Assembly: GCA_021785795.1 (NCBI GenBank)
Contig: JAJYEK010000050.1
Span: 1-22,983, forward strand
From: Pseudomonadota bacterium
Lineage (GTDB): Bacteria; Pseudomonadota; Gammaproteobacteria; Acidiferrobacterales; UBA6901
DNA: 22,983 nt
Direction of reading: 5' to 3'
The position numbers and the translations under genes are program-made. The notes beneath the pieces were generated by a model. It did not search any database. It was given only the letters and a program-made list of their open reading frames with translations, and had not been told where the DNA came from. Of the stretch, positions 1-22,983 are shown piece after piece. Positions within the stretch are counted from its first letter, which is position 1. Each line of letters begins with the position of its first letter.

Positions 1-132
1 CAGGTCGAGAATCTACCGCAGCCGCCCCTGGCCGCAGAGGCGCCTTCTGAGGACACGGCCAAGCGTCGTGCGTCGGGGACAAAGGAGCATCCGGGGCAGA
101 AATCACTCTTTGGCGGCGAGGGAGAACCATAA
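1..132 (+). CDS. C-terminal tail of an upstream protein (partial), possibly a DNA methyltransferase
   Basis: Frame 1 is open from the window edge to a TAA at 130-132 and encodes 43 residues ending in GQKSLFGGEGEP. The tail is Pro/Ala/Glu-rich with no domain visible. The stop lies one base before the GTG start of the YhcG-like gene, so the two are translationally coupled. In loci with a type III Res-like helicase, the gene at this position is often a site-specific DNA methyltransferase (Mod). That identity is inferred from context only, because the conserved part lies outside the window. Confidence 0.5.
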   Translation, partial: QVENLPQPPLAAEAPSEDTAKRRASGTKEHPGQKSLFGGEGEP

Positions 133-133
133 C

Positions 134-1228
134 GTGGCTGCGAAGTCGAAGCAGCCCGTTCCCATGAAACGCCCGCGCGGGGTGGCCAAACGCGTCCTGC
201 TGCGCGACATCCGCGGATTGATCGAGGAGGCACGGTCCGCTGTTGCGGCAACGGTCAACGCGGGTTTGACAATGCTCTACTGGCAGATCGGTCGGCGCAT
301 CTGCGACGAGCTCCTGCAGGGCGACCGGGCCGGATACGGGGAGGAGATTGTCTCGACACTGTCGGGACAATTGAGCGACGAGTATGGGACGGGGTTCTCG
401 GCCAAGAATCTGCGGCACATGATCCGGTTTGCGGAGGTATTTGAAGACGAACGAATTGTCTCGACACTGTGGAGACAATTGGGGTGGTCGCACTTCAAGG
501 AGATGATCTATCTCAAGGATCCGCTCAAGCGCGATTTCTATGCCGAGCTCTGCCGGATCGAACGCTGGTCGGTGCGCACGCTGCGGGAACGCATCGATTC
601 GATGCTCTATGAACGCACGGCGCTGTCCAAGAAGCCGGATCAGGTGATTCGGCACGCACTGGACACCCTGCGGAAAGAAGACCGGTTGACCCCGGACCTC
701 GTGTTTCGGGATCCTTATTTTCTTGATTTTCTCGGGCTCAAGGACCGGTATCTGGAAAAAGACCTGGAAGATGCCATTCTTCGCGAGTTGGAACATTTCA
801 TCCTCGAGCTGGGCGCCGGGTTTTCCTTCATTGCCCGTCAGAAACGGATCCAGGTCGACCACGACGATTACTACATCGACCTGCTGTTCTTTCATCGCGG
901 ACTCAAGCGGCTGGTCGCCATTGATCTGAAGCTGGGGGATTTCAAACCCGCCGATAAGGGACAGATGGAGCTCTATCTCCGCTGGCTGCAAAAGTATGAG
1001 ACGAAACCCGGTGAGCTTCCGCCCATAGGCCTCATTCTTTGCGCCGGCAAGAAACATGAGGTAGTAGAGCTGCTGGAATTGGAGCAGAGCGGTATCCGGG
1101 TCGCGGAATACCTGACGGAATTACCCTCCCGCCAGATCTTGGAGAAGAAACTCCACAAGGCGGTGGCCCAGGCCCGGCAGCGGATTGAAGGGCGGCCTTC
1201 CCCTCGAAAACGGAAAGCCGCGCCATGA
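134..1228 (+). CDS. yhcG: YhcG/DUF1016 family PD-(D/E)XK nuclease
   Basis: The protein has about 364 residues. The N-terminal part carries the DUF1016 signature (LYWQIGRRI, FSAKNLRHMIRFAEVF, QLGWSHFKEMIYLKDPLKRDFY). The C-terminal part is the YhcG nuclease domain, with DYYIDLLFFHRGLKRLVAIDLK matching the D...(D/E)xK active-site pattern. I chose the GTG at 134 because GAGGGAG at 118-124 sits 9 bases upstream and the preceding ORF ends at 132. The frame is open back to a GTG at 68, and an ATG at 164 is another option. The stop overlaps the next gene by 4 bases (ATGA), so the nuclease and the Res-like helicase are made together. Family members are associated with restriction and other defence loci. 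The function here is inferred. Confidence 0.88.
   Translation: MAAKSKQPVPMKRPRGVAKRVLLRDIRGLIEEARSAVAATVNAGLTMLYWQIGRRICDELLQGDRAGYGEEIVSTLSGQLSDEYGTGFSAKNLRHMIRFAEVFEDERIVSTLWRQLGWSHFKEMIYLKDPLKRDFYAELCRIERWSVRTLRERIDSMLYERTALSKKPDQVIRHALDTLRKEDRLTPDLVFRDPYFLDFLGLKDRYLEKDLEDAILRELEHFILELGAGFSFIARQKRIQVDHDDYYIDLLFFHRGLKRLVAIDLKLGDFKPADKGQMELYLRWLQKYETKPGELPPIGLILCAGKKHEVVELLELEQSGIRVAEYLTELPSRQILEKKLHKAVAQARQRIEGRPSPRKRKAAP
347..371. repeat. 25-bp imperfect palindrome, copy 1 (inside yhcG)
   Basis: The left arm ATTGTCTCGACA (347-358) and right arm TGTCGGGACAAT (360-371) are reverse complements at 11 of 12 positions around a central C. A second copy lies 108 bp downstream. It encodes IVSTLSGQL of the YhcG-like protein. 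Confidence 0.8.
455..479. repeat. 25-bp imperfect palindrome, copy 2 (inside yhcG)
   Basis: The left arm ATTGTCTCGACA (455-466) is identical to that of copy 1. The right arm TGTGGAGACAAT (468-479) again pairs at 11 of 12 positions. It encodes IVSTLWRQL, the segment leading into the conserved QLxWSHF motif of the family. Confidence 0.8.
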
Positions 1229-4859: not shown

Positions 4860-5395
4860 TCAGTCCATCGTGCCGACAATCTTCATGACGCGCTTCAAAT
4901 TGTAGGCCAGAACGCGCAAGCTCATTGCTGTCCTGACACGCTCCAGTGACCAGGTGAGGAAATGCGTCGCTCCCATCCAGTCCTTGATCGTGCCGAACGG
5001 GTGCTCGACCGTCTGCCGACGGATACGCATGACCTCAGGGTGCTTGTCGATCCGCCGTTGCATCGCTTCCAAACTGGCCTCATAGACATACCGGCTGACG
5101 TGTCGGTAATCGCTGGGCGTGCATTGTTCCTTGATCGCGCATCGCGGGCAATCTGAACTCCAGTAGTGGTTGATGAGGTGACCCTCCTCGACACGAGCGA
5201 AGCGCCCTATCAGGCGACTTCCCGCAGGACCGCGATAGGTGCCCGTAGCCTGATCGAAGACGAAATCCTCTGTGTGAAAGCGCCCCTCGGATCGGGCACT
5301 GGACATCCTCGGCTTGGAAACGACAGGAGTGATTCCGGCAACCTCACAAGCCAAATCTCATCGCCGCTGTAATAGCCACGATGCCAGTGTTTCAA
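4860..5395 (-). pseudogene. IS1182-family transposase remnant, N-terminally truncated and frameshifted
   Basis: Two minus-strand frames encode the C-terminal part of an IS1182/DDE transposase. The upstream frame gives HRGYYSGDEI (about 5350-5385). A single-base shift near 5346-5356 moves the reading to ACEVAGITPVVSKPRMSSA and on to RRQTVEHPFGTIKDWMGATH and LAYNLKRVMKIVGTMD, ending at 4860. These are conserved C-terminal IS1182 motifs, including the catalytic Glu region EHPFGTIK. The N-terminal two thirds of the usual 450-500 residues is missing beyond 5395. It cannot be a working transposase. Confidence 0.85.
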
Positions 5396-6912: not shown

Positions 6913-7185
6913 ACAGCGGTCCCGGCGCAGTGGGTGTTGCCTTCCACCCCGCCTGTTTTCCACCTGGGCTATGCGGTGTCCCCGGTGTCGCGCCTTCCGT
7001 GCGCCGCGATGTCCGCGCCTTGACTGCGCGACGGATTTCTGGTGATCTTGTGCCATTTTGGGGAAACCACAAAAACAGCCCTGCGGCGCAACATATTCCC
7101 CCAGCGTACCGTGAGCGTGGCTGATGAATACAGGGCGGTGGCGGTGCGGGAATCATTCCATGCGAAGACTCTGTTGAAGGATGGC
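6913..7185. other. Gap before cas6, no supported gene
   Basis: The cas6 frame stays open back to a GTG at 7042, but the residues it adds (for example ILCHFGETTKTALRRN) have no counterpart I know in Cas6. The promoter of the interference operon may lie here. I could not find a convincing -35/-10 pair or terminator. Confidence 0.4.
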
Positions 7186-8232
7186 GTGACCCGGCCGGAT
7201 CAGTCGCATTTCGCGATCATGCTGCCGGTTGGCCGCTACCGTGCCCGCTTCCAGGCGGTTGGTCCCATCCGTTTACCTGCCTATGCCGGCTCGGCATGGC
7301 GCGGCGCGTTCGGTCATGCCCTGAAGCGTGCGGTGTGTGTCACGCACGTTCCGGCCTGTTGCGATTGCCTGTTGTATCGCTCCTGCGGTTACGCGTACGT
7401 TTTCGAGACTCCGCTGCCACCGGGGACCGAGAAGATGCGCAAGTACCCCGCCGCGCCCCACCCGTTTGTGCTGGACGTGGACCTAAAGGGTGGCGAGTGC
7501 GCGGCGGGGTCGCCCTATGACCTGGGGTTTACGCTGATCGGTCGCGGCAATCAGTACCTGCCTTACATCATCCTTGCCTTGCAGCGCGCGGGTGAGGAGG
7601 GCATTGGCGCAGCGCGGGGGCGCTTCGAACTGGGCTGTGTCGAACAACAGGATGCGCCGGACAGGGTTTGGCGGGTGATCTACGAGCCAGGCGGTCGCTG
7701 CGAGGCGTCGCCGCCCGGAATTCCGATCCTGCCGGCGGTACCCGGGTGTCTCACGGTGACATTGGATACCCCCCTGCGCCTCAGGCGTGATGCGACGATC
7801 GTAAATGCCGGCTCGTTTTCTTTCACGGCTTTTTTCTCGAACCTGCTGCGCCGCATCTCGATGTTGAGTTACTTCCACACGGATACGCCGCTGGAAACCG
7901 ATTTCGCCGCACTGGTGGGGGCGTCACGGGACGTGCCGGTGCACGACCCCGCGCTGCGCTGGTTCGACTGGACGCGCTATTCATCGCGCCAGAAGCGGGA
8001 AATGGCTCTGGGAGGGCTGCTAGGCACATTTCGTCTCGAGGGGGCCGGGCTCGATCCCTTCTGGCCGTATCTGTGGCTCGGCCAGTATGTGCATGCGGGC
8101 GCGGTCACCACCATGGGGCTCGGGCGGTACCGCCTGATCACGGCCGCAAGCTTGCCGGTAGGAACCGCAGAGGCGGAACGTGCCATCATCAGTGCGCAGG
8201 AGGGCGACGGGGGCCGCGCGGCTGGCCGCTGA
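7186..8232 (+). CDS. cas6: CRISPR pre-crRNA processing endoribonuclease Cas6 (RAMP)
   Basis: The roughly 348-residue protein cuts repeat RNA to make crRNAs for the Cmr complex. The N-terminal RAMP fold begins GRYRARFQAVGPIRLPAYAG, followed by GSAWRGAFGHALKR and a cysteine cluster (C58, C59, C61, C67) in ACCDCLLYRSC. The C-terminal glycine-rich loop TTMGLGRYRL (from about residue 308) is the Cas6 hallmark. I favour GTG 7186, which has GAAGGA 4 bases upstream. ATG 7219 and GTG 7042 are alternatives. It lies at the head of the interference cluster, 76 bp before csm6, and may have its own promoter. Confidence 0.87.
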   Translation: MTRPDQSHFAIMLPVGRYRARFQAVGPIRLPAYAGSAWRGAFGHALKRAVCVTHVPACCDCLLYRSCGYAYVFETPLPPGTEKMRKYPAAPHPFVLDVDLKGGECAAGSPYDLGFTLIGRGNQYLPYIILALQRAGEEGIGAARGRFELGCVEQQDAPDRVWRVIYEPGGRCEASPPGIPILPAVPGCLTVTLDTPLRLRRDATIVNAGSFSFTAFFSNLLRRISMLSYFHTDTPLETDFAALVGASRDVPVHDPALRWFDWTRYSSRQKREMALGGLLGTFRLEGAGLDPFWPYLWLGQYVHAGAVTTMGLGRYRLITAASLPVGTAEAERAIISAQEGDGGRAAGR

Positions 8233-8308: not shown

Positions 8309-9535
8309 ATGGAACCACACAATTATGCACGGCGTATCCTGCTCGCCGTCACCGGCCTTGCGCCTCAGGTAGTGACGGAGACAGTATATGCGCTGACACA
8401 GCAGCGAACCCCACTGTTCATTCCAACGGAGATGCATCTAGTTACCACCGTTAAAGGGGCCAATCGTGCACGCCTTACGCTCTTGTCGGACGAGCCAGGA
8501 TGGTTTCATCGCCTGCGTAGAGACTACCATTTGCCAGATATTCAATTCGACGAGAAGCACATTCATGTACTGCGCGATGCCGAGGGAAGACCGCTTGAGG
8601 ATATTCGTACGCCAGAAGATAACGAGAAAGCTGCAAACTTCATTACCGACCAAGTTCGCCGTTTGACGGCAGATCGGAATTCGGCGTTGCACGTCTCGAT
8701 TGCCGGCGGACGCAAGACGATGGGTTTCTATGCCGGCTATGCGCTCTCGCTATTTGGTCGTCCGCAGGATCGTTTGTCGCATGTGCTGGTGTCGCCACGT
8801 TTCGAGACCAATCAAAACTTTTATTACGTGACACCGCGCAGCTACGTTATCTATACCAATCCCCCAGAGAGCGAACCGCTGGATGCGAAAGACGCCGAAA
8901 TAACGCTGGCCGATATTCCTTTCGTGCGGCTGCGCCAGGGATTACCGGAACGATTGTTGGCGGGCAAGGCAACCTTTAGCCATGCCGTAGCGGCTGCTCA
9001 GAAGACCGTGGGACCACCAGAACTCGTGATTGACCTTAAGAGTCGGCGCATACGTGCGAGCGGCAGGATCATCCGCCTGCCGCCGGTGCAACTGGCGTTC
9101 CTCAGTTGGTTTGCCCGCCACGTACTTGCAGGGGATGCGCCGCTTAATTGTCCTAAAGACGGCGCACCTGAGCCGGGATACGCCAAAGCATTCCTTTCGG
9201 AACATCAGGCCATCATCGGCCCCATGGGTGACAACGAGGCAACCTGTAAGCGGCTTGAAGGCGGAATGGATAAGGAGTTCTTCGAGCAAACGAACGCCAA
9301 GCTGAAAGCTTGTCTCGTGCGTGAGCTTGGGCACCAAGCACACGCCTACCTTGTCGAGGGTCAAGGCAGTCCGCGGCGCCGCTATGCGCTCGGCCTGCTG
9401 GCCGCGGCGATCCGCTATGAACCGATTGCGACAACAAGCTTGCCGAAAGCTCATGGCAATACGCCAGCGGGTATAGTTCATGCGTCCAAACGGAAGCGCA
9501 ACACCCGACAAGCAACTCGAAAATCAGCAAAGTAA
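8309..9535 (+). CDS. csm6: NE0113-family CRISPR CARF protein (annotated as Csm6 ring nuclease)
   Basis: The 408-residue protein has an N-terminal CARF domain with RRILLAVTGLAPQVVTETVY (residues 8-27) and SIAGGRKTMGFYAGYALSLF (GGRKT 133-137), the pattern of the Cas_NE0113 family. It should bind cyclic oligoadenylate made by Cas10, and the family is named a ring nuclease in databases. The second half has ELVIDLKSRRIRASGRIIRL followed by PPVQLAFLSWFARH, which looks like a winged helix. I see no clear HEPN motif; RELGHQAH is only a weak R-x6-H match. The tail is Arg/Lys-rich. No good ribosome site precedes the ATG. Base composition is less GC-rich than neighbouring cmr genes. The stop lies 2 bases before the next ATG. 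Confidence 0.85.
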   Translation: MEPHNYARRILLAVTGLAPQVVTETVYALTQQRTPLFIPTEMHLVTTVKGANRARLTLLSDEPGWFHRLRRDYHLPDIQFDEKHIHVLRDAEGRPLEDIRTPEDNEKAANFITDQVRRLTADRNSALHVSIAGGRKTMGFYAGYALSLFGRPQDRLSHVLVSPRFETNQNFYYVTPRSYVIYTNPPESEPLDAKDAEITLADIPFVRLRQGLPERLLAGKATFSHAVAAAQKTVGPPELVIDLKSRRIRASGRIIRLPPVQLAFLSWFARHVLAGDAPLNCPKDGAPEPGYAKAFLSEHQAIIGPMGDNEATCKRLEGGMDKEFFEQTNAKLKACLVRELGHQAHAYLVEGQGSPRRRYALGLLAAAIRYEPIATTSLPKAHGNTPAGIVHASKRKRNTRQATRKSAK

Positions 9536-9537
9536 TC

Positions 9538-9643
9538 ATGAGCGAACCGATCATCACCTGCCCAAGCTGCGGCCACCCGTTCGCAGTGCCCGACGCTTTA
9601 AGCGTACAGCTTAGAGGCGAGATCAGCGAGCATCCGCCATGTC
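9538..9643 (+). pseudogene. DUF2130 gene, N-terminal fragment (zinc-ribbon part)
   Basis: ATG 9538 opens MSEPIITCPSCGHPFAVPDA, the typical DUF2130 start with a CPSCG zinc-knuckle half-site. After LSVQLRGEISE this frame becomes Arg/Gly-rich nonsense (running to 9813), while the homologous reading continues in another frame from about 9644. Most of the roughly 100-150-residue coiled coil normally found between the two parts is absent, so a deletion with a frameshift has occurred. Confidence 0.7.
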
Positions 9644-10429
9644 ATGGGCGAGGAGCAAACGCTCAAGCTCAAGGGAAAGGAGAAACAGATCGAGGATCTG
9701 CGCCAGGCACTGAAAAACGCTCGACGCAGGAGCGAGCCGGGCAGCCAAGAGTTGCAGGGCGAAGTGCTCGGACTCGACGTCGAAGCGGCGCTCACCGCCC
9801 GTTTCCCGACTGATACGATCCGGCCCGTCAAGAAGGGTGTGAGAGGGGTGGACCTGATCCAAACCGTCAGAAGCGAATCGCTCCAGCCCTGCGGGACCAT
9901 TGTCTGGGAAGTCACGAACGCAAGAAACTGGTCGAACGGGTGGATCGAAAAGCTTAAGGACGGCCAGCGCGAAGCGGATGCAATGCTCGCCGTGCTCGTC
10001 TCGATGACGCTGCCAGAGGGTGTACGTGGTTTCGGTTCCGAGAATGGCTTATGGGCGGTGGACCGGGCGAGTTATCTCGCCCTGGCCACCGCCTTACGCC
10101 ACCAACTCATTAAGGTCGCCCGCGTGCAGAGGACGGTGACCGGCGTGAGTGCCAAGATGGGAGCGCTCTACAATTATCTGTCGGGTCACGAAGTTCGCCA
10201 CAGGGTGGAAGCAATTGTCGAGGCGTTCACTGCCCTACAGGCGCAGCTCGCACGCGAGCAGCGTACGATGGAAAGACAATGGGCCGAGCGCGAAAAGCAA
10301 ATCGAACGCGTCATCACGCGCACTACTGGCATGTACGGGTCGCTTGCCGGCATCATCGGCTCAAGCCTGCCGGAGATCCCGGCGCTCGAACTCGACAACG
10401 TCCGGCTTCTGGAGGACAGTGATGCGTAA
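9644..10429 (+). CDS. DUF2130 protein, C-terminal fragment (probably from a broken gene)
   Basis: The 261-residue ORF starts inside the former coiled coil (KGKEKQIEDLRQALKNARRR) and contains the conserved DUF2130 core: SQELQGEVLGLDVEAAL, CGTIVWEVTNARNWSNGWI, a YNYLSGHEVRHRVEAIVEAF segment and the C-terminal TTGMYGSLAGIIGSSLPEI. Full-length family members are about 400 residues or more. There is no strong ribosome site at 9644. Translation could come only from this internal start. It sits inside the CRISPR operon between csm6 and cmr1. DUF2130 has no established CRISPR role that I know of. Confidence 0.65.
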   Translation: MGEEQTLKLKGKEKQIEDLRQALKNARRRSEPGSQELQGEVLGLDVEAALTARFPTDTIRPVKKGVRGVDLIQTVRSESLQPCGTIVWEVTNARNWSNGWIEKLKDGQREADAMLAVLVSMTLPEGVRGFGSENGLWAVDRASYLALATALRHQLIKVARVQRTVTGVSAKMGALYNYLSGHEVRHRVEAIVEAFTALQAQLAREQRTMERQWAEREKQIERVITRTTGMYGSLAGIIGSSLPEIPALELDNVRLLEDSDA

Positions 10430-10493
10430 CCGTGGGTTTGCCGGGCAAGAGAAGTGTGCGGCGCGCGATGATAATCGCTCCGCGGAGGGTGCG

Positions 10494-11543
10494 ATGAAAA
10501 AACTCAAATATCAGGTGAGCTTCACTACGCCCGCTTTCCTTGGCAACGCCGAGCAGGACGGGCAGTGGCGGACGCCGCCGTTCAAGGCACTGCTGCGGCA
10601 GTGGTGGCGGGTGGTATACGCCACCGATCACGGTTTCCGGGTAAATGTTGCAGACATGCGACGGGAAGAGGGCAAGCTGTTCGGTCATGCTTGGCTTGAC
10701 GACGACCATAATGCAGATGGGGGCAAAATCGCTGCGCGCAAGAGCCTGGTGCGTATATGGTTAGATAGGTGGAGTCCGGGTGCATTAAGAAAGGACAATT
10801 GGCCGCAGAACGCTGTCGTGACGCATCCAGAAGTCAATAGACCGGTGGATAGTGCCCTCTACCTTGGGCTCGGGCCGCTGGTTCGCGACAAGCGAGCCAC
10901 AATGCTCAAAACCAACGCGGCAATTCAGGAAGGCGAAACGGCCAGCCTTTCTATCGCCGTGCCAGATGAGCATGCGCCATGCGTCGAGCAAGCGCTCATG
11001 CTTATGCACCGCTACGGGGCGGTAGGGGGCCGTAGCCGCAACGGCTGGGGCTCGTTCTCGCTCGTCGGGGTGGATGAGTCATCAAAATTGTCACCGCTAC
11101 GTCTGTGGCGCGATGCGCTAAAACTCGATTGGCCGCACGCCATCGGTCAGGATGAAAGGCCGTTGATTTGGCAAACCGCGCCCCACAAGGACTGGAAGGC
11201 GCTGATGCAGGAACTGGCCACCATCAAGATCGGGTTGCGGACGCAGTTCAAATTCACAATGGGCGATCAAGCACCTCATCCCGAGGACCGGCACTGGCTA
11301 AGTTATCCTGTTAGCGGGCATTTGGTTAAACCGTGGGACAAGGCTCGATTGACCAATAGCCTGCGTCTCAAGATCCGCCCTGCGCCCGACGATTCCGGGC
11401 ATGTCGTCGGCGTGATTTTCCACGTCCCTTGTCTGCCACCCGAGAAGTTTAAACCGGATCCTCGCGTGATAGAAACTATCTGGCGGCGTGTTCACCTGTT
11501 TCTCGACGCGCCTGCACAGAAACTGTCCCGCATCCTGGAGTAA
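10494..11543 (+). CDS. cmr1: Type III-B RAMP protein Cmr1
   Basis: The 349-residue Cmr complex subunit starts MKKLKYQVSFTTPAFLGNAE, the usual Cmr1 opening strand and TPxFLG motif, followed by FKALLRQWWRVVYA. The G-rich RAMP loop GGRSRNGWGS falls at residues 178-187. Cmr1 caps the 3' end side of the crRNA-bound backbone. I chose ATG 10494 (GGAGGG 3 bases upstream) because the conserved region begins there. An in-frame ATG at 10422, also with GGAGG upstream and overlapping the DUF2130 stop, would add 24 residues. It is followed after 3 bases by cmr2. Confidence 0.9.
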   Translation: MKKLKYQVSFTTPAFLGNAEQDGQWRTPPFKALLRQWWRVVYATDHGFRVNVADMRREEGKLFGHAWLDDDHNADGGKIAARKSLVRIWLDRWSPGALRKDNWPQNAVVTHPEVNRPVDSALYLGLGPLVRDKRATMLKTNAAIQEGETASLSIAVPDEHAPCVEQALMLMHRYGAVGGRSRNGWGSFSLVGVDESSKLSPLRLWRDALKLDWPHAIGQDERPLIWQTAPHKDWKALMQELATIKIGLRTQFKFTMGDQAPHPEDRHWLSYPVSGHLVKPWDKARLTNSLRLKIRPAPDDSGHVVGVIFHVPCLPPEKFKPDPRVIETIWRRVHLFLDAPAQKLSRILE

Positions 11544-11546
11544 GAC

Positions 11547-14500
11547 ATGAGCAACGACATCCTCTGGCAAACCAAGATTGCTGCGCGCATCCACGACCCG
11601 GCCGAAAAGGCGCTTGTGCTGCTGCGCGATCCGGCGGGACACGAGGGCGGCACGTCGCGGGCCTTAAGGCGTCTGCTTGGACTGGATCAATTGCCGGCAG
11701 AACAGATTGACCCCGACAACAACGAGGCGCTGTCCACGGTCATTTTCAAGAAAGGCTTGCCGGTTTCCATCTACTGCCATGTCCAACACGCCGACTGGTG
11801 GGCCGCTGCGGCCGACCGGCCGCAATGGCCAATGCAGGAGGAGGTCCTGTCTTCCGGCAAGACCCTGGCCGTTGCCCCGTGGGCACAGGTACGCTGGACG
11901 CAAAAGCCGGTGCTCGTCCATCCACTGACGGGTGAGTCAGTCGACCTGCATGCATTGACCGATACCGATATCACCGACATCAAAGAACGCAGCTTCAAGC
12001 ATTTTTCCGGTCTGTTGGGCAAGCTCGGTGCCAACGATGGCGAGACGTACGATCTGCGCAAGGTCCTGCTTGCCTATTGGCGGTTTGGCCCGGATTTGTC
12101 GGTGACTGGAGCAGACACGGAAGACAACGGCAAGCTGGGTAAACTGTGGGAACTGCTTCCCGCTGATACCCGCATCCCGGATCATTCCATCTGGGATCAC
12201 CTCGACCTCACCTCTGCCTTCGCCGGCGCCTTTGCCGCTGACCCCCATGGTGAGGCCGCCCTGCTGACGATGTCCATCGGCCCAGTACAAGGCTTCATCG
12301 CTGCCGCCCGTAGTACCTCGGACCTGTGGGCCGGCTCACACCTGCTGTCACGCCTCGCATGGGAGGCGATGCGTCCGGTGTGTGAAGAGCTCGGCCCCGA
12401 TGCCGTCCTCTTTCCACGCTTGCGCGGCATCCCACAAGTCGATCTGTGGCTACGCGACCGGATGAACCTGCCGGATGAACTGTTTGCAGATTGCGAATGG
12501 ATGCGAGGCGGCACCGACGCCAACCCGCTATTCTCGGCCACTCTGCCCAACCGATTCGTGGCCGTGGTGCCGGCAGGCCGGGTACGGCGGATCGCTGAGG
12601 AGATCACGCAGGCCGTACGCCAGTGGTTGTTGGAGACTGGCGAAGATGCGGTGTCGCGCCTGTTGCATGCAGCGGGCCTTGATACCGAAACGGCCATGCC
12701 TTATGAGCAAATGAAAGCACAGCTCGCGGGATTCCCTGAGGTGCACTGGGCGGCGGTGCCTTTCTCGGTCATCAAGGCGCGCAATGCCAGGAAACAAACC
12801 GATCTCGACGTCACCGCCTTGTCCGCGGCCATGGCCCCATTCTTCGGTGTCGAGCCCGGCCAACCTTGCGGTTTCCTGGACAGCCAGGCCTGGCAGGCAC
12901 TCAGCGGGGAAATCGACTGGGGCGACGGCACCACCTTCTTCGCTCCCAATCCTGGCGTGTTTTACCCGGCGGTGTACGACTTGGCCGAACGGGTGCTGGC
13001 CGCTGCCAAGGCGACACGCATTTTTGACCAGAGCGAACAGCAGGGTTGGCGTTGCTCACTGACCGGAGAGGCCGAATGGCTGACGACCAACCGCGCTCAA
13101 TTGCAGAAATCGTATCGTCAGCAGACGGATACGCTCTGGGCCAAAGTTGCCGAGACAAGGCCCTCTTGGGCGAAGAAAGGTGAACACCTGAGCGCCTTGC
13201 CCGCCATCAAGCGGCTGTGGCCGACGATCTTCGCTGAGGAGGTTTCTCAGGCGATCGGTCAAGATATTGGCCGCTTCGTCGTTTCCACCCGTACCATGGC
13301 GCTGGCGTATCAACTCGACCGGTGGCTAGAAAAGGGCGGTCCGGCTGATGAGGGGTTCGATAAAGAGTGCAAAGAACGAAGGGCGGAGGCTGTCGCTCTG
13401 CCACGCAAGCTGATGCACCGCCACAGGGACAACAAAGTGGCGCTGGCTGCCGCTAAACTCATCCCCGGATTGCTGGAGGCTGTTCGCGACGAAGAAGATG
13501 AAAAAGCGTGCGAACGGGCAAAAGACCTTGTATGCCAGACCTTGAAAAAGGGATCTAACAAGGATGATGAGATCAGGCTCGAAACCTACTACGCACTGAT
13601 CATGATGGATGGCGACCGCATGGGCGCTATCATTTCCGGCGACGATAAGTCCGGTACCACGATTTCCTACCGCGATAGCTTCCACCCGCAGGTGAAAAAG
13701 GGCTTCGACGACCGTGCTGCCACGCAACCGCTGATCCAGCAATACGGCCGACAGAAGCGTCCTGTGTCGCCCAACCGGCATCTCGCCATCTCCGGCGCGC
13801 TCAACGACTTTTCCCAAACCGTGGTGCGGCAGGTGGTGGAAGAGGAGCATCTGGGTCGGGTCATCTACGCCGGAGGCGACGATATGCTGGCCATGCTGCC
13901 GGTAGCCGATATGCTTTCCACCATGCAGCGGCTGCGCCACGCCTACAGCGGTACGGTGCCCGAAGATAAAGATGTGGATTGGGGCGAATTGCGCAAGCGC
14001 GGGAAATTGGTCTGCAAGGGCGGATTTGCGTATCTGAACGGGAAACTTTTGCGCATGATGGGCAACAGGGCCACTACCAGTTGCGGCGCGGTGATCGCCC
14101 ACCACCAGGCTCCGCTCGGCGCGGTGCTGCGCGAATTGCGCACGGCGGAAAAACGTGCCAAGGCAGCTCAGCAGCAAGGCGGCGGCGGCCGCGATGCCTT
14201 TTCGATCACCGTCATCAAGCGCTCTGGTGGTGCACTGTACTTGACGGAGAAATGGGGTGAGCCGCTGGCAGTGCTCGGCGATCTGTGCGTTTTTCTGGCA
14301 CACGAGGACGTTTCCCGCCGTGCGGTGTACAACGCGCTGGAGTGGCTAATCGATTTGCCTGATCCAAAAGGAAAGCCGGAAATGCTGGAGTCCCTGCTGG
14401 CGTATCAACTTGCGCGGCAAGTGAGCGCACTGGACACGGAAAAGCGGGAGGTACTGAAAGACCAGGCAGCCATGCTTGCCGGACGCCTGGCGAAACTTGC

Positions 14501-14593
14501 TGCCGCGCAATTGAGAGAGCGCCTGAATTGGTTGCAAAATTTTCTCACTGTGGCTGAATTCCTGGCCCGAGAAACGCGTATCGGAGGTGAAGC

Positions 14594-14597
<4 letters not shown>
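11547..14597 (+). CDS. cmr2: Cas10/Cmr2, large subunit of the type III-B complex
   Basis: The 1016-residue protein has an HD pair in IHDPAEKALVLL (H16, D17), the Cmr2 palm signature MSIGPVQGFIAAAR (from residue 242) with DLWAGSHLLSRLAWEAM, a DGD motif (D688, D690) and the catalytic GGDD at 776-779 (YAGGDDMLAML). The intact GGDD predicts cyclic oligoadenylate synthesis on target RNA binding. The HD predicts possible single-strand DNA cleavage, although Cmr2 HD domains are often weak. Only one Cys (WRCSLTGEAEW) is obvious in the usual zinc-binding area. The stop overlaps cmr3 (ATGA). Confidence 0.95.
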
Positions 14598-17078
<2,481 letters not shown>

Positions 17079-17079
17079 G

Positions 17080-18285
17080 ATGCCAATTGCCGCTGTTCCC
17101 GGATATCTCGGACAAGACTTCACTGCAGCATCGCCGGCGATGCGGTTTGGCATATACCTCAAACTTTGGGGCACGAACAGCCGAACCAATACTTTGCGAT
17201 GGGAAACATATGATATCGATTATGAGGTGCGCGGGCAGAACCAGATGGAACGGGAGGTCAGGAAAGAAAACAAGGTTTCCGCACTGCGTGATGCCAGACG
17301 ATTGAACGACGACGATAAGAAGGCAATGCATGCCTTACTTGTTCGCCAGAGGCAGACGTTTGAGACCGTTGGTGCGATCAACGCCGTATTCCGCCTCGAC
17401 GCTGAGTCGGTCGCCCCCTTCACCACCGGATTGGGCAACGAACATCCTCTGGAAAATGGTTTTTCCTTTCTGAACCCCTACGGTCTGCCATACTTGCCGG
17501 GCAGCGGAATCAAAGGTGTGCTGCGTCAGGCAACATGGGAACTGGCGAGCGGAAAGTGGGGCGAATCTTGTTCTTGGAATGAGGACGACATCGCTGCCTT
17601 GTTCGGTTTGCAACCGAAAGACGGCGACACTGAGCACTCGCGCGGCGCGTTGATCTTCTGGGATGTCATCCCCCAGATCAAGGGCGACAGCCTCATGGTC
17701 GAGATCATGACACCCCATCAGAACCACTACTATCAACAGGATCACACCAAGGGTATGGGTAGCACCACCCCCCACGACTCCGGCCAGCCCATGCCCATCA
17801 GCTACCTTACCGTGCCACCCGGTTCCGGCTTCACCTTCCACGTTGGCTGCGACCTAGCCCTCTTGCGACGCATCGCTCCGACTCTGGCCGAAAACAACCG
17901 ATGGGAAGCCCTGCTCACCACCGCCTTCGAGCACGCCTTCCAATGGCTGGGCTTTGGCGCCAAGACATCTGTGGGTTATGGTGCGATGCGGGCCTTGTCG
18001 CTGGAAGAGGTCGAACAGGCCGACGCGGATGCCAAGGCGGCGACCCTGCATTGCGGCTGGGTTGACGAAACGATCAAAAGATTGACGAAGACGCATAACG
18101 CGAAAGCGTTGGATGTCTTGCGCGGCAAGCCGCTGGCCGAGGAGTGGAGAGCGCTTCAGGATCGGTCGCTGCAAGTAAAGGCATTTGCAGACATCAAGGC
18201 CCGCTGGCAGGCCCAAGGCTGGTGGAACAATCCACCCGGGAAATCCGCTAAGCAGGCAAGAGTTATGTATGAAGGCAGCGAATGA
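17080..18285 (+). CDS. cmr6: Type III-B RAMP protein Cmr6
   Basis: The 401-residue protein has FTTGLGNEHPLENGFSFLNP, then LPYLPGSGIKGVLRQATWEL (PGSGIKG 140-146), RGALIFWDVIPQ and the C-terminal glycine-rich loop GFGAKTSVGYGAMR (291-304), all Cmr6 hallmarks. It caps the 3' end of the crRNA backbone next to Cmr1. The roughly 90-residue N-terminal part and about 90-residue C-terminal tail outside the RAMP core are charged and not recognised. The stop overlaps the csx16 start. Confidence 0.93.
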   Translation: MPIAAVPGYLGQDFTAASPAMRFGIYLKLWGTNSRTNTLRWETYDIDYEVRGQNQMEREVRKENKVSALRDARRLNDDDKKAMHALLVRQRQTFETVGAINAVFRLDAESVAPFTTGLGNEHPLENGFSFLNPYGLPYLPGSGIKGVLRQATWELASGKWGESCSWNEDDIAALFGLQPKDGDTEHSRGALIFWDVIPQIKGDSLMVEIMTPHQNHYYQQDHTKGMGSTTPHDSGQPMPISYLTVPPGSGFTFHVGCDLALLRRIAPTLAENNRWEALLTTAFEHAFQWLGFGAKTSVGYGAMRALSLEEVEQADADAKAATLHCGWVDETIKRLTKTHNAKALDVLRGKPLAEEWRALQDRSLQVKAFADIKARWQAQGWWNNPPGKSAKQARVMYEGSE

Positions 18286-18578
18286 TGATTTACTTTGTTT
18301 CCCGACATCCCGGTGCGCGGGACTGGATGATGTCCCAGGGTTTATTGGTGGATGAAGTCGTTGAGCATATAGGCATTGACCAACTGCACTCCGGAGACGT
18401 AGTAATTGGTTCGCTACCCGTGAATTTAGCAGCGCACGTTTGTGCGTGCGGCGCGCGGTACGTGCATCTCACGTTGGACTTACCCTTGGAGGCGCGTGGT
18501 CGGGATCTAACAATGGAGGAAATGCGCCGCTACGGGGCACGCGTGGAGGAATACCAAGTGAGGAAAATAGCATGCTGA
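18282..18578 (+). CDS. csx16: Csx16 family CRISPR-associated protein (predicted ring nuclease)
   Basis: The 98-residue protein matches the Csx16 (VVA1548) pattern from end to end: FVSRHPGARDWM, LHSGDVVIGSLPVNLAAHVC, CGARYVHLTLDLP, ARGRDLTMEEMRRYGARVEEYQV. Csx16 has been proposed, and I believe shown for some members, to degrade cyclic oligoadenylate and so switch off type III signalling. Its place between cmr6 and a CARF nuclease, overlapping both, fits that role. Confidence 0.85.
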   Translation: MMIYFVSRHPGARDWMMSQGLLVDEVVEHIGIDQLHSGDVVIGSLPVNLAAHVCACGARYVHLTLDLPLEARGRDLTMEEMRRYGARVEEYQVRKIAC

Positions 18579-19705
18579 ATGCCAGCACCCACGTGCTGCT
18601 GGTATCTGCCCAGGCTGCTCCGAATCTGCTCGCCGCGCTCGACCCTGAGCTAAAGCCTGATGAGGTGGTATTGATGGTCACGCACAAGATGCGCGACCGC
18701 GCCGATGCGCTGGAAGCGGTACTACGAGAGTCGGGCGTCAAGGTTGCCCTCGTTGTGTTGGACGATGAGCACGATTTCTCCAAACTGGAGGGTACATTGC
18801 TCGAGCTTGCCAGCAGTCGAGAAGGTCAGGCCATTGCGCTCAACGTTACCGGCGGCACCAAGCTCATGGCCCTTGCCGCACAGTCGGTTGCTCAAGCGGC
18901 AGGTTGGTCCGTCTTCTATGTCGACGTCGATACTGATGAGGTAATTTGGTTGGGTAAGGAGTCCCACCGCAGGAAGCTGTCGGAATACCTCCGTTTGCGG
19001 CATTACCTGCGTGGGTATGGTTTCACTATAGAAGGGGAAATCCAATGTCCGCAACCGGAGCGACGGCATGCGGATCTTCTGCAAACGCTTGTCATGCAAG
19101 TCGGAAGCCTTGAGCAGCCGCTTAGCCAACTCAACTGGCTGGGGCAGGAATCTGAAGGCAAGAAAACGCTTCAAGTCAAACTTTCTGCCGAGCAATTGGA
19201 TAGCCGTGGGTTGGAAGCGCTCCTGCGATACTTCAAAGAAGCTGAGGTCCTTAGCGTAGCGGGAGACACGCTGAAGTTTGCCAGCGAGGAGGACCGAGAC
19301 TTCGCCAAGGGCGGGTGGCTTGAGCGGTACGTATTCAAGGTACTTAGTGATTCTGCTGGTGAGCTTGCGATTCGCGATAAGGCTGCCAATCTGGTAGTGA
19401 TGGATAGGGAAGGGGTAAAGAATGAGCTTGATGCCGCGTTTATGGCACGTAATCGTCTCTTCGTCGTCGAATGCAAGACGGCCCGAATGGATAAACCCGA
19501 GGCGCCCAAGGCGAACGACACCCTGTTCAAGCTTTCTGAAATCTGCAGACGAGTTGGGGGGCTGGGGGCACGCGGAATGCTGGCAAGTTACCGCCGATTG
19601 AGAGACCAGGAAAGATGCCTCGCTAAAGCCTTGGACATCGAGGTGGTGTGCGGTGTTGATCTTGCGCGTCTCGATGAACGCCTCAGGCGCTGGGTGAGGT
19701 CCTGA
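18572..19705 (+). CDS. can2: Can2/Card1-type CARF nuclease (DUF1887)
   Basis: The 377-residue effector has an N-terminal CARF domain with THVLLVSAQAAPNLLAAL and the ligand-loop NVTGGTKLMALAAQ (91-104). The C-terminal PD-(D/E)XK nuclease has GGWLERYVFKVL, D287 (ELDAAF) and E300-C-K302 (VVECKTAR). Card1/Can2 proteins bind cyclic tetra-adenylate and cut DNA and/or RNA. ATG 18572 lies inside csx16, overlapping its stop by 7 bases. The frame is open back to 18440, but that part is antisense-like filler over csx16. This is the last gene of the interference cluster. Confidence 0.9.
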   Translation: MLNASTHVLLVSAQAAPNLLAALDPELKPDEVVLMVTHKMRDRADALEAVLRESGVKVALVVLDDEHDFSKLEGTLLELASSREGQAIALNVTGGTKLMALAAQSVAQAAGWSVFYVDVDTDEVIWLGKESHRRKLSEYLRLRHYLRGYGFTIEGEIQCPQPERRHADLLQTLVMQVGSLEQPLSQLNWLGQESEGKKTLQVKLSAEQLDSRGLEALLRYFKEAEVLSVAGDTLKFASEEDRDFAKGGWLERYVFKVLSDSAGELAIRDKAANLVVMDREGVKNELDAAFMARNRLFVVECKTARMDKPEAPKANDTLFKLSEICRRVGGLGARGMLASYRRLRDQERCLAKALDIEVVCGVDLARLDERLRRWVRS

Positions 19706-20211: not shown

Positions 20212-20496
20212 TTGACAGACCGGGACCTTTACATCGCCGCCTACGACATTGCGAGCGTACGCCGCCTGAGGGCGGCCCTCGGCTGTCTCAAGGGGTATGC
20301 GATCGGCGGCCAGAAGTCGGTCTTTGAGTGTTTCCTCACTGCATCCGAACGTCGCACCCTTCTCGAGAAGATGGGGGCCATCGTGAATCCGGAGGAGGAC
20401 CGATTTTTGCTCATTCGGCTCGATCCGCGCTCGCGAGTGCGTGTTCTCGGCATCGGCGTCGAGCCGCAGGATCCGCCCTTCTTCTATCACGGCTGA
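20212..20496 (+). CDS. cas2: CRISPR integrase subunit Cas2 (first copy)
   Basis: The 94-residue product begins LTDRDLYIAAYDIASVRRLR, with the Cas2 first strand and its Asp (AYDI), then GGQKSVFECFLTASERRTLL and a final strand RVRVLGIG. I chose TTG 20212 because GAGGAG sits 6 bases upstream and the resulting length is typical of Cas2. Starts at ATG 20191 or GTG 19975 would add 7 or 79 residues. It is 4 bases from cas1. Cas2 bridges Cas1 dimers during spacer integration. Confidence 0.87.
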   Translation: MTDRDLYIAAYDIASVRRLRAALGCLKGYAIGGQKSVFECFLTASERRTLLEKMGAIVNPEEDRFLLIRLDPRSRVRVLGIGVEPQDPPFFYHG

Positions 20497-20500
20497 TTCT

Positions 20501-21490
20501 ATGGGCACGCTTTATCTCGATAGGAAGGGGCTGGAAATACGAGCTGATGGCTCGGCACTAGCGCTCTACGAGCACGGCGCCCGCGTGCGTACCGTGCCAG
20601 CCGCACTCCTCGATCGCGTGGTGATCCGCGCCGAGACAGCCTTCACCAGTGGAGTGCTCGGGATGCTCGCCGAGGCGGGGGTGGCCATTACCGTGCTGGG
20701 TGGCCGGCAGGGACGCCGCGTCGCTCTCGTGATGGGCCGCGGACACAACGACGCCCGCATTCGGCTCGCGCAGTATGTCCGTTCTCAGGATGCAGCGTTC
20801 CGCCTGAGCTGGGCGTGCCGATTCATCGAGAAAAAGGTCGCCCATCAGATCGCATTTCTCGAGGCGGCGCTTGCCAGGCGTGCAGACCTGCGCAAGCCAC
20901 TCACCGACGCGCTTGCCACGCTGCGCAGCCTCCGTCTCCGCCTGGGCGGATCGAGGCCAGAGATTGCGGAGGCAGGTGTGCTGCGGGGGATCGAGGGCGC
21001 CGCTCAGGCGGCCTACTTCCGGGCCTATTGTGTGCTGTTCCCGGCTTCGCTCCACTTCGTGGGCCGCAACCGCCGCCCACCCCTCGATCCGGTTAATGCC
21101 TGTCTCTCGCTCGGCTATACGCTGACCCACGCCGAAGCGGTGCGTGTAGCTTATGCTGCCGGGCTTGACCCCTTGATCGGTTTTTACCATGAGACCGCCT
21201 TCGGCCGGGAGTCACTCGCCTGCGATCTCATTGAGCCGCTGCGGGCGGCGGTGGATGCCTGGGTCTGGGCGCTCTTCCGCAACCGGACGTTGCGCGAGGA
21301 GCATTTTAAGTCGGACCAGGGCGCTTGCCTCCTCGACAAAGTGGGCCGGGCGCACTTCTACGAACAGTTTGAGGGATTCCTGCATCCGGTAAGTCGTAGG
21401 CTGCGTCGCTATTGCCGGGTGCTGGTGCGTGCATTGCTCGACGGTATTGCTGCACCGGATGAACAGGGGTTCGGGGAAGAAGAGCCATGA
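20501..21490 (+). CDS. cas1: CRISPR integrase Cas1 (catalytic copy)
   Basis: The 329-residue protein has the N-terminal beta domain (LYLDRKGLEI, AGVAITVLGGRQGR) and a helical catalytic domain with E165 in LRGIEGAAQAAYF, H230 in GFYHETAFGRESLACDLIEPLR and D242/E245, the Glu-His-Asp/Glu metal site of active Cas1. DPVNACLSLGYTLTH is also conserved. The frame extends upstream to 20441 but that overlaps cas2. No strong ribosome site is seen, so coupling to cas2 is likely. The stop overlaps the next gene by 4 bases. It should integrate new spacers into the downstream array. Confidence 0.94.
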   Translation: MGTLYLDRKGLEIRADGSALALYEHGARVRTVPAALLDRVVIRAETAFTSGVLGMLAEAGVAITVLGGRQGRRVALVMGRGHNDARIRLAQYVRSQDAAFRLSWACRFIEKKVAHQIAFLEAALARRADLRKPLTDALATLRSLRLRLGGSRPEIAEAGVLRGIEGAAQAAYFRAYCVLFPASLHFVGRNRRPPLDPVNACLSLGYTLTHAEAVRVAYAAGLDPLIGFYHETAFGRESLACDLIEPLRAAVDAWVWALFRNRTLREEHFKSDQGACLLDKVGRAHFYEQFEGFLHPVSRRLRRYCRVLVRALLDGIAAPDEQGFGEEEP

Positions 21491-22401
21491 AGGCGCTGTA
21501 TCTCGACGGTCGTTCGCATGTGGAGGTCTTCCTCGATGGCCCAGCGCTTCGGGTGCGGACAGCAGGGCGGCCCGACGGGCGATACCCGCTGGCCCGCCTT
21601 GCCAGGATTGTGGCATGCGGGGCCGTGCGCTTTCAGCCGTACGTTCTACTCGCCTGTCTGCACTGTACGGTGCCAATCGTCATCCTCGACAACCAGGGCC
21701 GTTTCGTGCGGCTGTCATTTTCCGGCACGACGGGCAATGGACTGGCTCGCCACCTCGGGGAACTCGTTTGCTTGCCCCGCTACCGTTGTCGCTACGAGGC
21801 GTGGCGTCGGGCGACCGAGTCCGATGAGATGCGCCGGGTGGCCGGGCAGTATGGCGTGTCGGGGCATCCCTTGTCCCCTCGGCATTTGTGGCAGCGGATT
21901 TTCCGTATTCAATCGACATCGCGGAAAGTGCGCATTGGGCACGCCTACCGCACACTGCGGGGGCTGGCGATGGCGCACGCGGCCACCTGTTTTGCCCGGC
22001 TCGGAATGCCGCGCGATTCCGATCTCTGGAGTCCCGAGGAGTGGTGGATCCTGCGGGATTTCGTGGGGCTTCTCGAATGGAGCCATCCGTCCCTGGTAGG
22101 TATGCTGGTAGCCGGCGGCGAGACCATCGACCGTCGGGTCCTGACCTATCTCTTTGAGGCGCAATCTGCCGAGCGCGAGCAGCGCATTGACGCTTGGCGG
22201 CAAGCCTTGCTTCTTGCAATCCTGGGCATCCAAGTTGTCGCAGATCCTGACCGTGGGCAACGGAGTTCTGTTCCCCTCCCGTTTGTCCCTGGCGGACGAA
22301 TCCTCGACATCGGTGCTGGCCGGAAAAGAGGTACTCTGGTCAAAGAGAGAGCACGCCACTGCACAGCCTTCTGGCGCAGGGCGCCGGACCCGCATTCATG
22401 A
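21487..22401 (+). CDS. Second Cas1-like protein lacking the catalytic residues
   Basis: The 304-residue product starts KALYLDGRSHVEVFLDGPAL, with LARLARIVACGAVRFQPYVL and CTVPIVILDNQGRFVRLSFS, matching the neighbouring Cas1 beta domain strand by strand. In the helical domain, LRGLAMAHAATCF (A161) aligns with LRGIEGAAQAAYF of the active Cas1, replacing the catalytic Glu. GMLVAGGETIDRRVLTYLFE has V208 where the active copy has His, and no acidic residue at the third site. It overlaps cas1 and the second cas2 by 4 bases each. A structural or regulatory partner in a mixed Cas1-Cas2 complex is inferred. Confidence 0.8.
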   Translation: MKALYLDGRSHVEVFLDGPALRVRTAGRPDGRYPLARLARIVACGAVRFQPYVLLACLHCTVPIVILDNQGRFVRLSFSGTTGNGLARHLGELVCLPRYRCRYEAWRRATESDEMRRVAGQYGVSGHPLSPRHLWQRIFRIQSTSRKVRIGHAYRTLRGLAMAHAATCFARLGMPRDSDLWSPEEWWILRDFVGLLEWSHPSLVGMLVAGGETIDRRVLTYLFEAQSAEREQRIDAWRQALLLAILGIQVVADPDRGQRSSVPLPFVPGGRILDIGAGRKRGTLVKERARHCTAFWRRAPDPHS

Positions 22402-22784
22402 GTCATTCGGAATTGTGCCCTTGGCTCATTGTCTATGACATTGCGAACAGACGCAGGCTGGGTCGCGTGCACCGGTATCTCAGGCAACACGCCATCCCGG
22501 TACAATATTCAGTCTTCGTGCTGTATGGGAACGATCGGAAACTCAAGCACGTGCTCGAGGCCATCGAGGAACGCATCGATAGGGGCAAGGATGATGTGCG
22601 GGCCTATCACCTACCGCAGCGCTGCGAGCTTGTAATGCTCGGAACCCAGAACCTCCCACAGGGGATACTGCTGCCGACCCCGGGCCTCGCGAAACTCTTG
22701 CACGACGCGCTGATTCCGATCGGCACCGTCGCTACCGTGAAGGAATTCGGGTCCTCTGAAGAGGAGGTGATCGATGATACCTAA
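22398..22784 (+). CDS. cas2: Second Cas2 with acidic C-terminal extension
   Basis: The 128-residue product has the Cas2 ferredoxin-like core: LCPWLIVYDIANRRRLGRVH with the conserved Asp, RQHAIPVQYSVFVLYGNDRK, IDRGKDDVRAYHLP and the CELVMLG strand. About 35 extra residues follow and end in an acidic tail (GSSEEEVIDDT). It differs strongly from the first Cas2, so the pair is not a recent duplication. It is the last gene before the CRISPR leader and overlaps the second cas1-like gene. Confidence 0.88.
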   Translation: MSHSELCPWLIVYDIANRRRLGRVHRYLRQHAIPVQYSVFVLYGNDRKLKHVLEAIEERIDRGKDDVRAYHLPQRCELVMLGTQNLPQGILLPTPGLAKLLHDALIPIGTVATVKEFGSSEEEVIDDT

Positions 22785-22857
22785 CTTTGCCAGTGAGAAA
22801 AGGTCTGGCAAAGGGGTGCATAATATCTTGAATGTTGTGCAGAAATCGCTGTAAGCA
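22785..22857 (+). promoter_or_regulatory. CRISPR leader (short) with a hairpin
   Basis: The 73-bp AT-richer stretch separates cas2 from the first repeat. CTTTGCCAG (22785-22793) and CTGGCAAAG (22805-22813) form a perfect 9-bp inverted repeat with an 11-base loop starting right after the cas2 stop. There is no T-tract, so it is not a classical terminator. TGCATAAT at 22817-22824 could be an extended -10 for array transcription, but a good -35 at standard spacing is not clear. Confidence 0.55.
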
Positions 22858-22983
22858 GTTCGATGAGCAGACCTGATGAAGAAGGGATTACGACGAGCTT
22901 CACCCGTGCCTTGTGGTGATGGGAGGCGGTTCGATGAGCAGACCTGATGAAGAAGGGATTACGACGTGCGGGCGCTGGGATAT
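22858..22983 (+). CRISPR. CRISPR array, first two repeats (continues past the window edge)
   Basis: Two identical 37-nt repeats lie at 22858-22894 and 22929-22965. They begin GTTCGATGAGCAGACC and end AGGGATTACGAC. The first spacer is 34 nt (22895-22928), and 18 nt of the next spacer are present. Both spacers start with G, so a 38-nt repeat cannot be excluded. The repeat has no strong hairpin. Orientation is inferred from the leader-proximal cas genes. With 8-nt Cas6 processing the crRNA tag would be ATTACGAC. Confidence 0.93.

Follow-up and report, generated by a model that had tools for sequence, protein, structure and literature searches.

The stretch of DNA considered here (the window, 22,983 nucleotides, contig JAJYEK010000050.1 of assembly GCA_021785795.1 from a Pseudomonadota bacterium) carries a clustered regularly interspaced short palindromic repeats (CRISPR) locus with a double adaptation module, that is four open reading frames (ORFs) on one strand at 20212-22784, adjoined on the 3' side by a CRISPR array and on the 5' side by a type III-B locus. 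An earlier note on this DNA had read the four coupled genes as encoding two Cas1 and two Cas2 proteins, and Pfam agrees, its calls being Cas2, Cas1, Cas1 and Cas2. The second Cas1, a diverged protein referred to below as Cas1x, is the main subject of this analysis. The module and the start of its array consist of:

20212..20496, + strand: upstream Cas2, 94 amino acids, TTG start; Pfam CRISPR_Cas2, 6.1e-12
20501..21490, + strand: catalytic Cas1, 329 amino acids, with Glu165, His230, Asp242 and Glu245; Pfam, 3.7e-68
21487..22401, + strand: Cas1x, diverged Cas1 without the catalytic Glu and His, 304 amino acids; core ~1-250, then a low-confidence tail
22398..22784, + strand: downstream Cas2, 128 amino acids; Pfam CRISPR_Cas2, 1.9e-15
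22785..22857, + strand: putative leader of 73 nt, separating the second cas2 from repeat 1, from sequence (the array begins 73 nt 3' of cas2)
22858..22894, + strand: CRISPR repeat 1, 37 nt, direct repeat; ends placed by eye
22895..22928, + strand: spacer 1, 34 nt, from sequence and the direct repeat
22929..22965, + strand: CRISPR repeat 2, from sequence and the direct repeat; the array extends past the window end

The catalytic Glu, His and Asp of the active Cas1 are found in 93/93 of the Cas1 set and Glu245 in 91/93, and the structure model of the protein has a predicted local distance difference test (pLDDT) score of 84.7. The upstream Cas2 is 92-96 amino acids long across all 35 loci described below, and a Tyr-Asp pair is invariant in both Cas2 proteins (12/12 aligned upstream rows and 15/15 downstream rows).

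Spread and gene order of the module

A scan of genome contigs with a single protein gave no loci. With an alignment-based profile, 15 were recovered from species genomes, all of them in Pseudomonadota, for example Candidatus Contendobacter, Plasticicumulans, Marichromatium, Thiorhodococcus and Vineibacter. Because the latter search rested on one motif pattern it missed members without the motif. In a survey of the class of Plasticicumulans, which we take to be Gammaproteobacteria, any match to Cas1x was found in 40 of 369 genomes, with strong matches (70 bits or more) in 20 and weak ones only in the other 20; the corresponding survey of the class of Vineibacter gave any match in 13 of 385 genomes, strong in 2 and weak only in 11. 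The double module is thus not rare, being present in 20/369 sampled genomes of one bacterial class. Three of the 22 strong survey matches were already among the first 15, and the resulting 35 loci comprise 34 genomes and the window. From the 31 weak-match genomes eight loci were examined, these eight all being from the Vineibacter class, and they have one cas1 and one cas2 each, the cas1 match being spread over two frames in one of them (L032). A further arrangement was seen in genome G380 (L059, 1851-3662, minus strand), where two different cas2 genes are followed by one ordinary cas1 and no second Cas1 was seen between or beside them.

The same four-gene order, which the earlier note had proposed looking for in other genomes, does recur there: cas2-cas1-cas1x, in one direction, is present in 35/35 loci and is followed by a second cas2 in 33. 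In the remaining two, L047 and L053, the contig ends early, yet the start of the second Cas2 is readable by eye (21 residues in L047). In L053 the frame following Cas1x (1-261, minus strand) reads as a second Cas2 for ~50 residues and then meets a stop near the contig end. The Cas1x frame is uninterrupted in 34/35 loci, L015 being the interrupted one. Conserved ATGA overlaps had also been claimed, and whilst the window does have two, at 21487 and 22398, they are not universal; with start codons called by script and L015 and L045 left out, the overlap is exactly -4 in 10/33 loci for Cas1 and Cas1x and in 6/31 for Cas1x and the second Cas2. The conserved feature is the gene order, not the ATGA overlaps.

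Type III genes, recognised by similarity to the window proteins, lie near 29/35 modules, comprising Cmr or Cas10 in 16 and nothing beyond ancillary genes or Cas6 in 13, and two of the six modules without them (L011 and L015) are on contigs of ~5 kb or less. Among the 33 loci with a second cas2 an array follows downstream in 21, one repeat motif is found at the contig end in 3, and <600 nt of sequence is available in 6; the complete double modules of L037, L039 and L054 have >6 kb downstream and no CRISPR array. For the arrays of the window and three relatives (of the 21 arrays), no spacer targets that could serve a test of strand bias were found in the phage collection. The five Cas1x homologues that come with organism names belong to Acidobacteria/Acidobacteriota or Terriglobia, and the window Cas1 groups with acidobacterial homologues; from these similarities an acidobacterial source of the window would be likely. 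Carriage as plasmid or virus cargo was considered and set aside, as in the collections and with the patterns searched three Cas1x proteins matched no plasmid and no relative turned up among viral contigs.

Fold, active site and selection in Cas1x

Cas1x belongs to the Cas1 family. It matches the Pfam Cas1 model (PF01867) at 27.7 bits, against a cut-off of 22.3, over residues 14-91 only, and its modelled structure has the two-domain Cas1 fold, with 246 residues aligned at 2.9 A. The N-terminal domain is kept, as had been proposed, with an LYLDG...LDGPAL motif that is a hallmark of the Cas1x family. The best PADLOC match of the window protein is PDLC01185. This model hits 24/24 Cas1x rows, and its label, 'Cas1, diverged variant, second in the loci', fits the position of Cas1x, a second Cas1 following cas1 in 35/35 loci; the general Cas1 model PDLC01608 likewise matches 24/24 rows. 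The tail past ~residue 250 (22230-22401) is of low confidence in the model and unlike that of the nearest relatives, P0002 and P0003, whose own ends (IHESF and LHESL) look similar, by eye, to part of a window stretch in another frame (ORF 22154-22438).

The catalytic residues of E. coli Cas1 are given in the relevant passage of PMC9939771 as E141, H208, D218 and D221. The earlier note had paired LRGLAMAHAATCF with LRGIEGAAQAAYF, which would put Ala in place of the catalytic Glu, and this pairing does not hold: in the profile comparison the Cas1x helix at ~151-171 pairs with the later Cas1 helix at 197-219, and the Glu165 helix of Cas1 has no counterpart in Cas1x. The Glu-motif alignment was rejected since hhalign, given the helix alone, again picked the later Cas1 helix (E 0.0021), its only other alignment being to the last Cas1 helix (E 0.16). 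The comparison further sets Gly173 opposite Gly221, Ser182 opposite the catalytic His230, Asp191 opposite Asp242 and Gly194 opposite Glu245. The loss of the catalytic His therefore stands, with Ser182 and not Val as its replacement, and the supposed lack of an acid at the third site does not, as Asp191 lies opposite Asp242 and Asp is found there in 51/71 rows of the family set (which leaves out L015). An intact Glu-His-Asp triad, which would have spoken against a dead protein, was not found, both Glu and His being lost. Cas1x is not classed as an active integrase because the Glu helix is without a counterpart, His has become Ser182 and Glu245 has become Gly194, so that of the Glu, His and two acids of a catalytic integrase only the one acid Asp191 is kept.

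Cas1x has near-invariant residues of its own, namely DGPAL, Pro34, Arg37, Arg40, Trp106, Gly173, Trp198 and Glu224, each in 60-71 of the 71 rows, and these span rows from two phyla. Might such residues give it a different activity? An acidic residue is present at position 224 in 67/71 rows, at position 17 in 65/71 and at position 191 in 54/71, and an activity built on Glu224, Asp17 and Asp191 could be imagined; however, no conserved His exists in the family (the best column has 27/71 rows), and Asp17 sits in the N-terminal beta hairpin, distant in sequence from Asp191, and we regard this explanation as quite improbable.

Selection on Cas1x was estimated from the ratio of non-synonymous to synonymous substitution rates (dN/dS), by Nei-Gojobori on script alignments, for a full list of 15 pairs with Cas1x dN up to 0.36; L015, with its interrupted Cas1x, and L045, whose start was mis-called, were dropped from these summaries as well as from the domain conservation figures and Mantel tests. 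Purifying selection on the second Cas1, a check the earlier note had put forward, is borne out, with dN/dS at 0.08-0.38 in 14 of the 15 lowest-dN pairs and 0.63 in one. More distant pairs reach up to 1.5, near saturation. The Cas1 N-terminal domain makes the Cas1 dimer, and in this domain mean pair identity over 33 loci is similar in Cas1x (0.39) and Cas1 (0.42); as identity in the helical domain of Cas1x is low, it would seem that the dimer-making part has been kept whilst the catalytic part has drifted. The drifted part retains near-invariant residues of its own (Trp106, Gly173, Trp198 and Glu224).

These data bear on whether Cas1x is simply a decaying duplicate that persists by chance. In favour of decay, the copy in L015 is interrupted, that in genome G166 (described below) has an internal deletion, the helical domain changes fast and one close pair is at 0.63; against this, the frame is uninterrupted in 34/35 loci, dN/dS is low in 14/15 pairs and near-invariant motifs are shared between two phyla. 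Decay is largely refuted by these observations and is by some way the least probable explanation that we have weighed. The suggestion that this is a dead Cas1 and not simple decay is thus upheld by the gene order, the uninterrupted ORFs, the low dN/dS, the near-invariant residues and the Cas1 fold.

Partners of Cas1x and its proposed role

With the module Cas1 as the query, 98 of the 369 genomes from the Plasticicumulans class gave a match, of which 21 scored at least 335 bits, followed by a gap to 229. Twenty of the 21 genomes with a full-length Cas1 of this clade are the twenty with Cas1x. The exception, G166 (L055), has between an intact Cas1 and Cas2 a 67-residue frame with both ends of Cas1x, that is an internal deletion, and one repeat without spacers (8100-8140) in the 1.3 kb downstream of the module. 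In two other members, G112 (L056) and G071 (L057), Cas1x is missing, Cas1 is broken and the two cas2 genes are both present; 8 repeats were detected in the former and 9 in the latter. A further clade member, G162, is cut by a contig end. In the Cas1 tree the module Cas1 proteins stand apart from the eight outgroup rows (99/98) and L055 falls within the window's group (100/99), so that its Cas1x was lost; L056 and L057 have no well-supported place in the tree. With an outgroup as small as these eight rows, a single origin is no more than likely. The group that holds L055, from a genome of the Plasticicumulans class, also holds the window and the acidobacterial homologues (100/99), a position that hints at transfer between phyla.

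These relatives allow another role to be judged, in which Cas1x acts as a brake that forms inactive hybrids with Cas1 and so limits spacer uptake. A paralogue that is dead but has kept its N-terminal domain could behave in this way, and tight or overlapping genes would fix its dose. Modules that have lost a brake should remain active, but Cas1 is broken in two of the three relatives that lack Cas1x and a single repeat lies downstream in the third, which weakens this explanation, and we consider it unlikely.

Co-variation was assessed by eleven partial Mantel tests, uncorrected and with 2000 permutations, from which L047 and L053 were also dropped as their second cas2 is cut. Once Cas1 is controlled for, the helical domain of Cas1x still co-varies with each of the Cas2 proteins (partial r 0.27; 4/2000 for the upstream and 1/2000 for the downstream Cas2), and since it tracks both of them a Cas1x subunit that touches Cas2 would fit. 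The helical domains of Cas1 and Cas1x gave 35/2000, the N-terminal domain of Cas1x gave 35/2000 with the upstream and 44/2000 with the downstream Cas2, and the remaining tests gave 120-648/2000, with 179 for upstream against downstream Cas2.

We propose that Cas1x is a paralogue of Cas1 that has lost catalysis and serves regularly in a type III module for spacer acquisition, as a non-catalytic subunit of the integrase, and would put the probability of this at roughly one half. The grounds are the Cas1 fold, the loss of Glu and His, the fixed four-gene order, purifying selection and the near-strict co-occurrence with one Cas1 clade. Cas1x may pair with the active Cas1 as a permanently non-catalytic subunit, and the two Cas2 proteins may bridge such Cas1/Cas1x pairs into one heteromeric integrase, in which the division of labour between catalytic and non-catalytic copies would be fixed in separate genes. 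Such an asymmetric integrase is a plausible leading mechanism.

A number of observations weigh against this proposal. The structure models are of single chains and give no physical evidence of a complex, and co-variation between the N-terminal domains of Cas1 and Cas1x, controlled for Cas2, is not significant (226/2000). Plain co-variation of Cas1 and Cas1x (Mantel r 0.71, 0/2000) says little because all six gene pairs give 0/2000. The natural knockouts of Cas1x are three only, two of them with Cas1 broken too. Cas1x also changes fast in its helical domain, where mean pair identity is 0.21 against 0.51 in Cas1 (33 loci). As for selection, the pair at 0.63 is L047/L048 (Cas1 0.41), less close pairs shown within L001, L003, L005, L010 and L036 have values of 0.31-0.60, and the 15 pairs are fewer independent tests than they appear because five Chromatiaceae loci supply 10 of them and dS is < 1 in only five (dN/dS 0.16, 0.16, 0.35, 0.38 and 0.63).

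A serious rival is that Cas1x and the downstream Cas2 form a putative non-catalytic complex of their own, beside an active integrase of Cas1 and the upstream Cas2. This complex would take up or size prespacers, or else bind to leader and repeat, before handing over to the integrase. The gene order is mirror-like, with each Cas1 adjoining its own Cas2, and the two Cas2 groups differ, identity to the window's upstream Cas2 being 23-35% in 15 downstream rows and 50-65% in 11 further rows of the upstream group; the co-variation of the Cas1x helical domain with the downstream Cas2 points the same way. That the domain co-varies with the upstream Cas2 too speaks against a separate complex, and we hold this rival to be possible, though doubtful.

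Were Cas1x instead a subunit of the shared integrase, as we favour, a more specific and decidedly tentative idea is that in a four-gene integrase, with one catalytic and one dead Cas1 and two different Cas2 proteins, different subunits handle the two prespacer ends, so that spacer orientation is set without a protospacer adjacent motif (PAM). If true, such PAM-less orientation is what an RNA-matching type III system would need. To our knowledge it is an open question how type III systems without a reverse transcriptase get usefully oriented spacers, and the question bears on the modules described here, most of which have type III genes nearby. Furthermore, a lineage that has split the roles of Cas1 over two genes would represent a natural separation-of-function experiment, as removal of Cas1x alone would show what the job of the non-catalytic copy is, be it holding Cas2, sizing DNA or choosing orientation.

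The type III-B locus and known systems

The window locus upstream of the module is of type III-B, having Cas10/Cmr2 together with Cmr subunits:

7042..8232, + strand: Cas6; PADLOC Cas6, 4.6e-100
8309..9535, + strand: Csx1-like CARF protein; Pfam Cas_NE0113, 7.2e-49
10338..11543, + strand: Cmr1-like subunit; PADLOC Cmr1, 5.5e-8 (weak)
11547..14597, + strand: Cas10/Cmr2; TIGR02577, 2e-70, over cut-off
14594..15763, + strand: Cmr3; TIGR01888, 3.6e-23, under its cut-off
15787..16686, + strand: Cmr4; PADLOC Cmr4, 1.6e-59
16683..17078, + strand: Cmr5; TIGR01881, 1.1e-8, over cut-off
17080..18285, + strand: Cmr6; TIGR01898, 5.3e-31, over cut-off
18282..18578, + strand: Csx16; TIGR02620, 5.1e-31
18572..19705, + strand: Card1-like CARF nuclease; Pfam Card1_endonuc, 9.1e-25, and CARF_Card1, 6.1e-16

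Within this locus a DUF2130 gene (9538-10429) may be split over two frames, a weak zinc-ribbon match (E 0.0063) starting it at 9538-9813 and the DUF2130 body lying at 9644-10429. Further upstream, at 68-3915, a gene for a YhcG-type PDDEXK nuclease is followed by one for a type III restriction-like helicase, likely a second defence pair near the CRISPR locus, and a transposase fragment (DDE_Tnp_1_6, 6.8e-13; 4860-5354, minus strand) lies between this pair and the CRISPR locus.

It had been stated that no characterised system has this layout, which may hold for function; the second Cas1 is however recorded in PADLOC-DB and doubled cas1 and cas2 genes are in print. PDLC01185 consists of a profile and its label, and nothing on function, distribution, the active site or a second Cas2 was found attached to it. 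A type III locus of Acidithiobacillus ferrivorans YL15 is described in a passage of PMC5438186 as having two copies of cas1/cas2, and a passage of PMC6119699 describes for Methylobacter KS41 a locus called III-A, in which cas1/cas2 are likewise present twice, together with csx1 and csx16. These doubled genes are probably the same module; each mention is one sentence, and the passages concerned do not treat gene order, loss of catalysis or conservation. The text passages of the 2025 CRISPR classification (PMC12669027), figures and supplements aside, do not mention the module. Going by the parts of the papers concerned, the second cas1 of PMC6998098 and PMC5626976 is in another locus and the cas1 and cas2 genes of PMC4406477 are scattered, and these are not this module. 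The doubled genes are therefore already known, and no account was found, supplements lying outside the search, of their loss of catalysis, conservation, spread or function.

With type III-B (Cmr) systems the window shares Cas10, Cmr3-6, Cas6, Csx16 and Card1 upstream, and differs in its double adaptation module, the eight weak-match loci having a single cas1 and a single cas2. Dead Cas1 proteins as such are already known, since according to the relevant part of PMC9939771 members of Cas1-solo group 1, stand-alone cas1 genes outside CRISPR systems, are without some activity residues; Cas1x differs from these in being tied to an active Cas1, two Cas2 proteins and usually type III genes. Finally, a passage of PMC8102632 describes a solved integrase in which a Cas2 dimer carries two Cas1 dimers, some of the Cas1 copies being catalytic and others non-catalytic, and a passage of PMC6895254 also names a non-catalytic copy. 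Canonical Cas1-Cas2 integrases, including those with RT-Cas1 (a reverse transcriptase-Cas1), thus resemble the module in their Cas1 fold, Cas2 partners and non-catalytic Cas1 copies, but they have Cas1 homodimers in which one gene supplies the catalytic and the non-catalytic copy alike, whereas here the latter would be the product of a separate gene, alongside two Cas2 genes.

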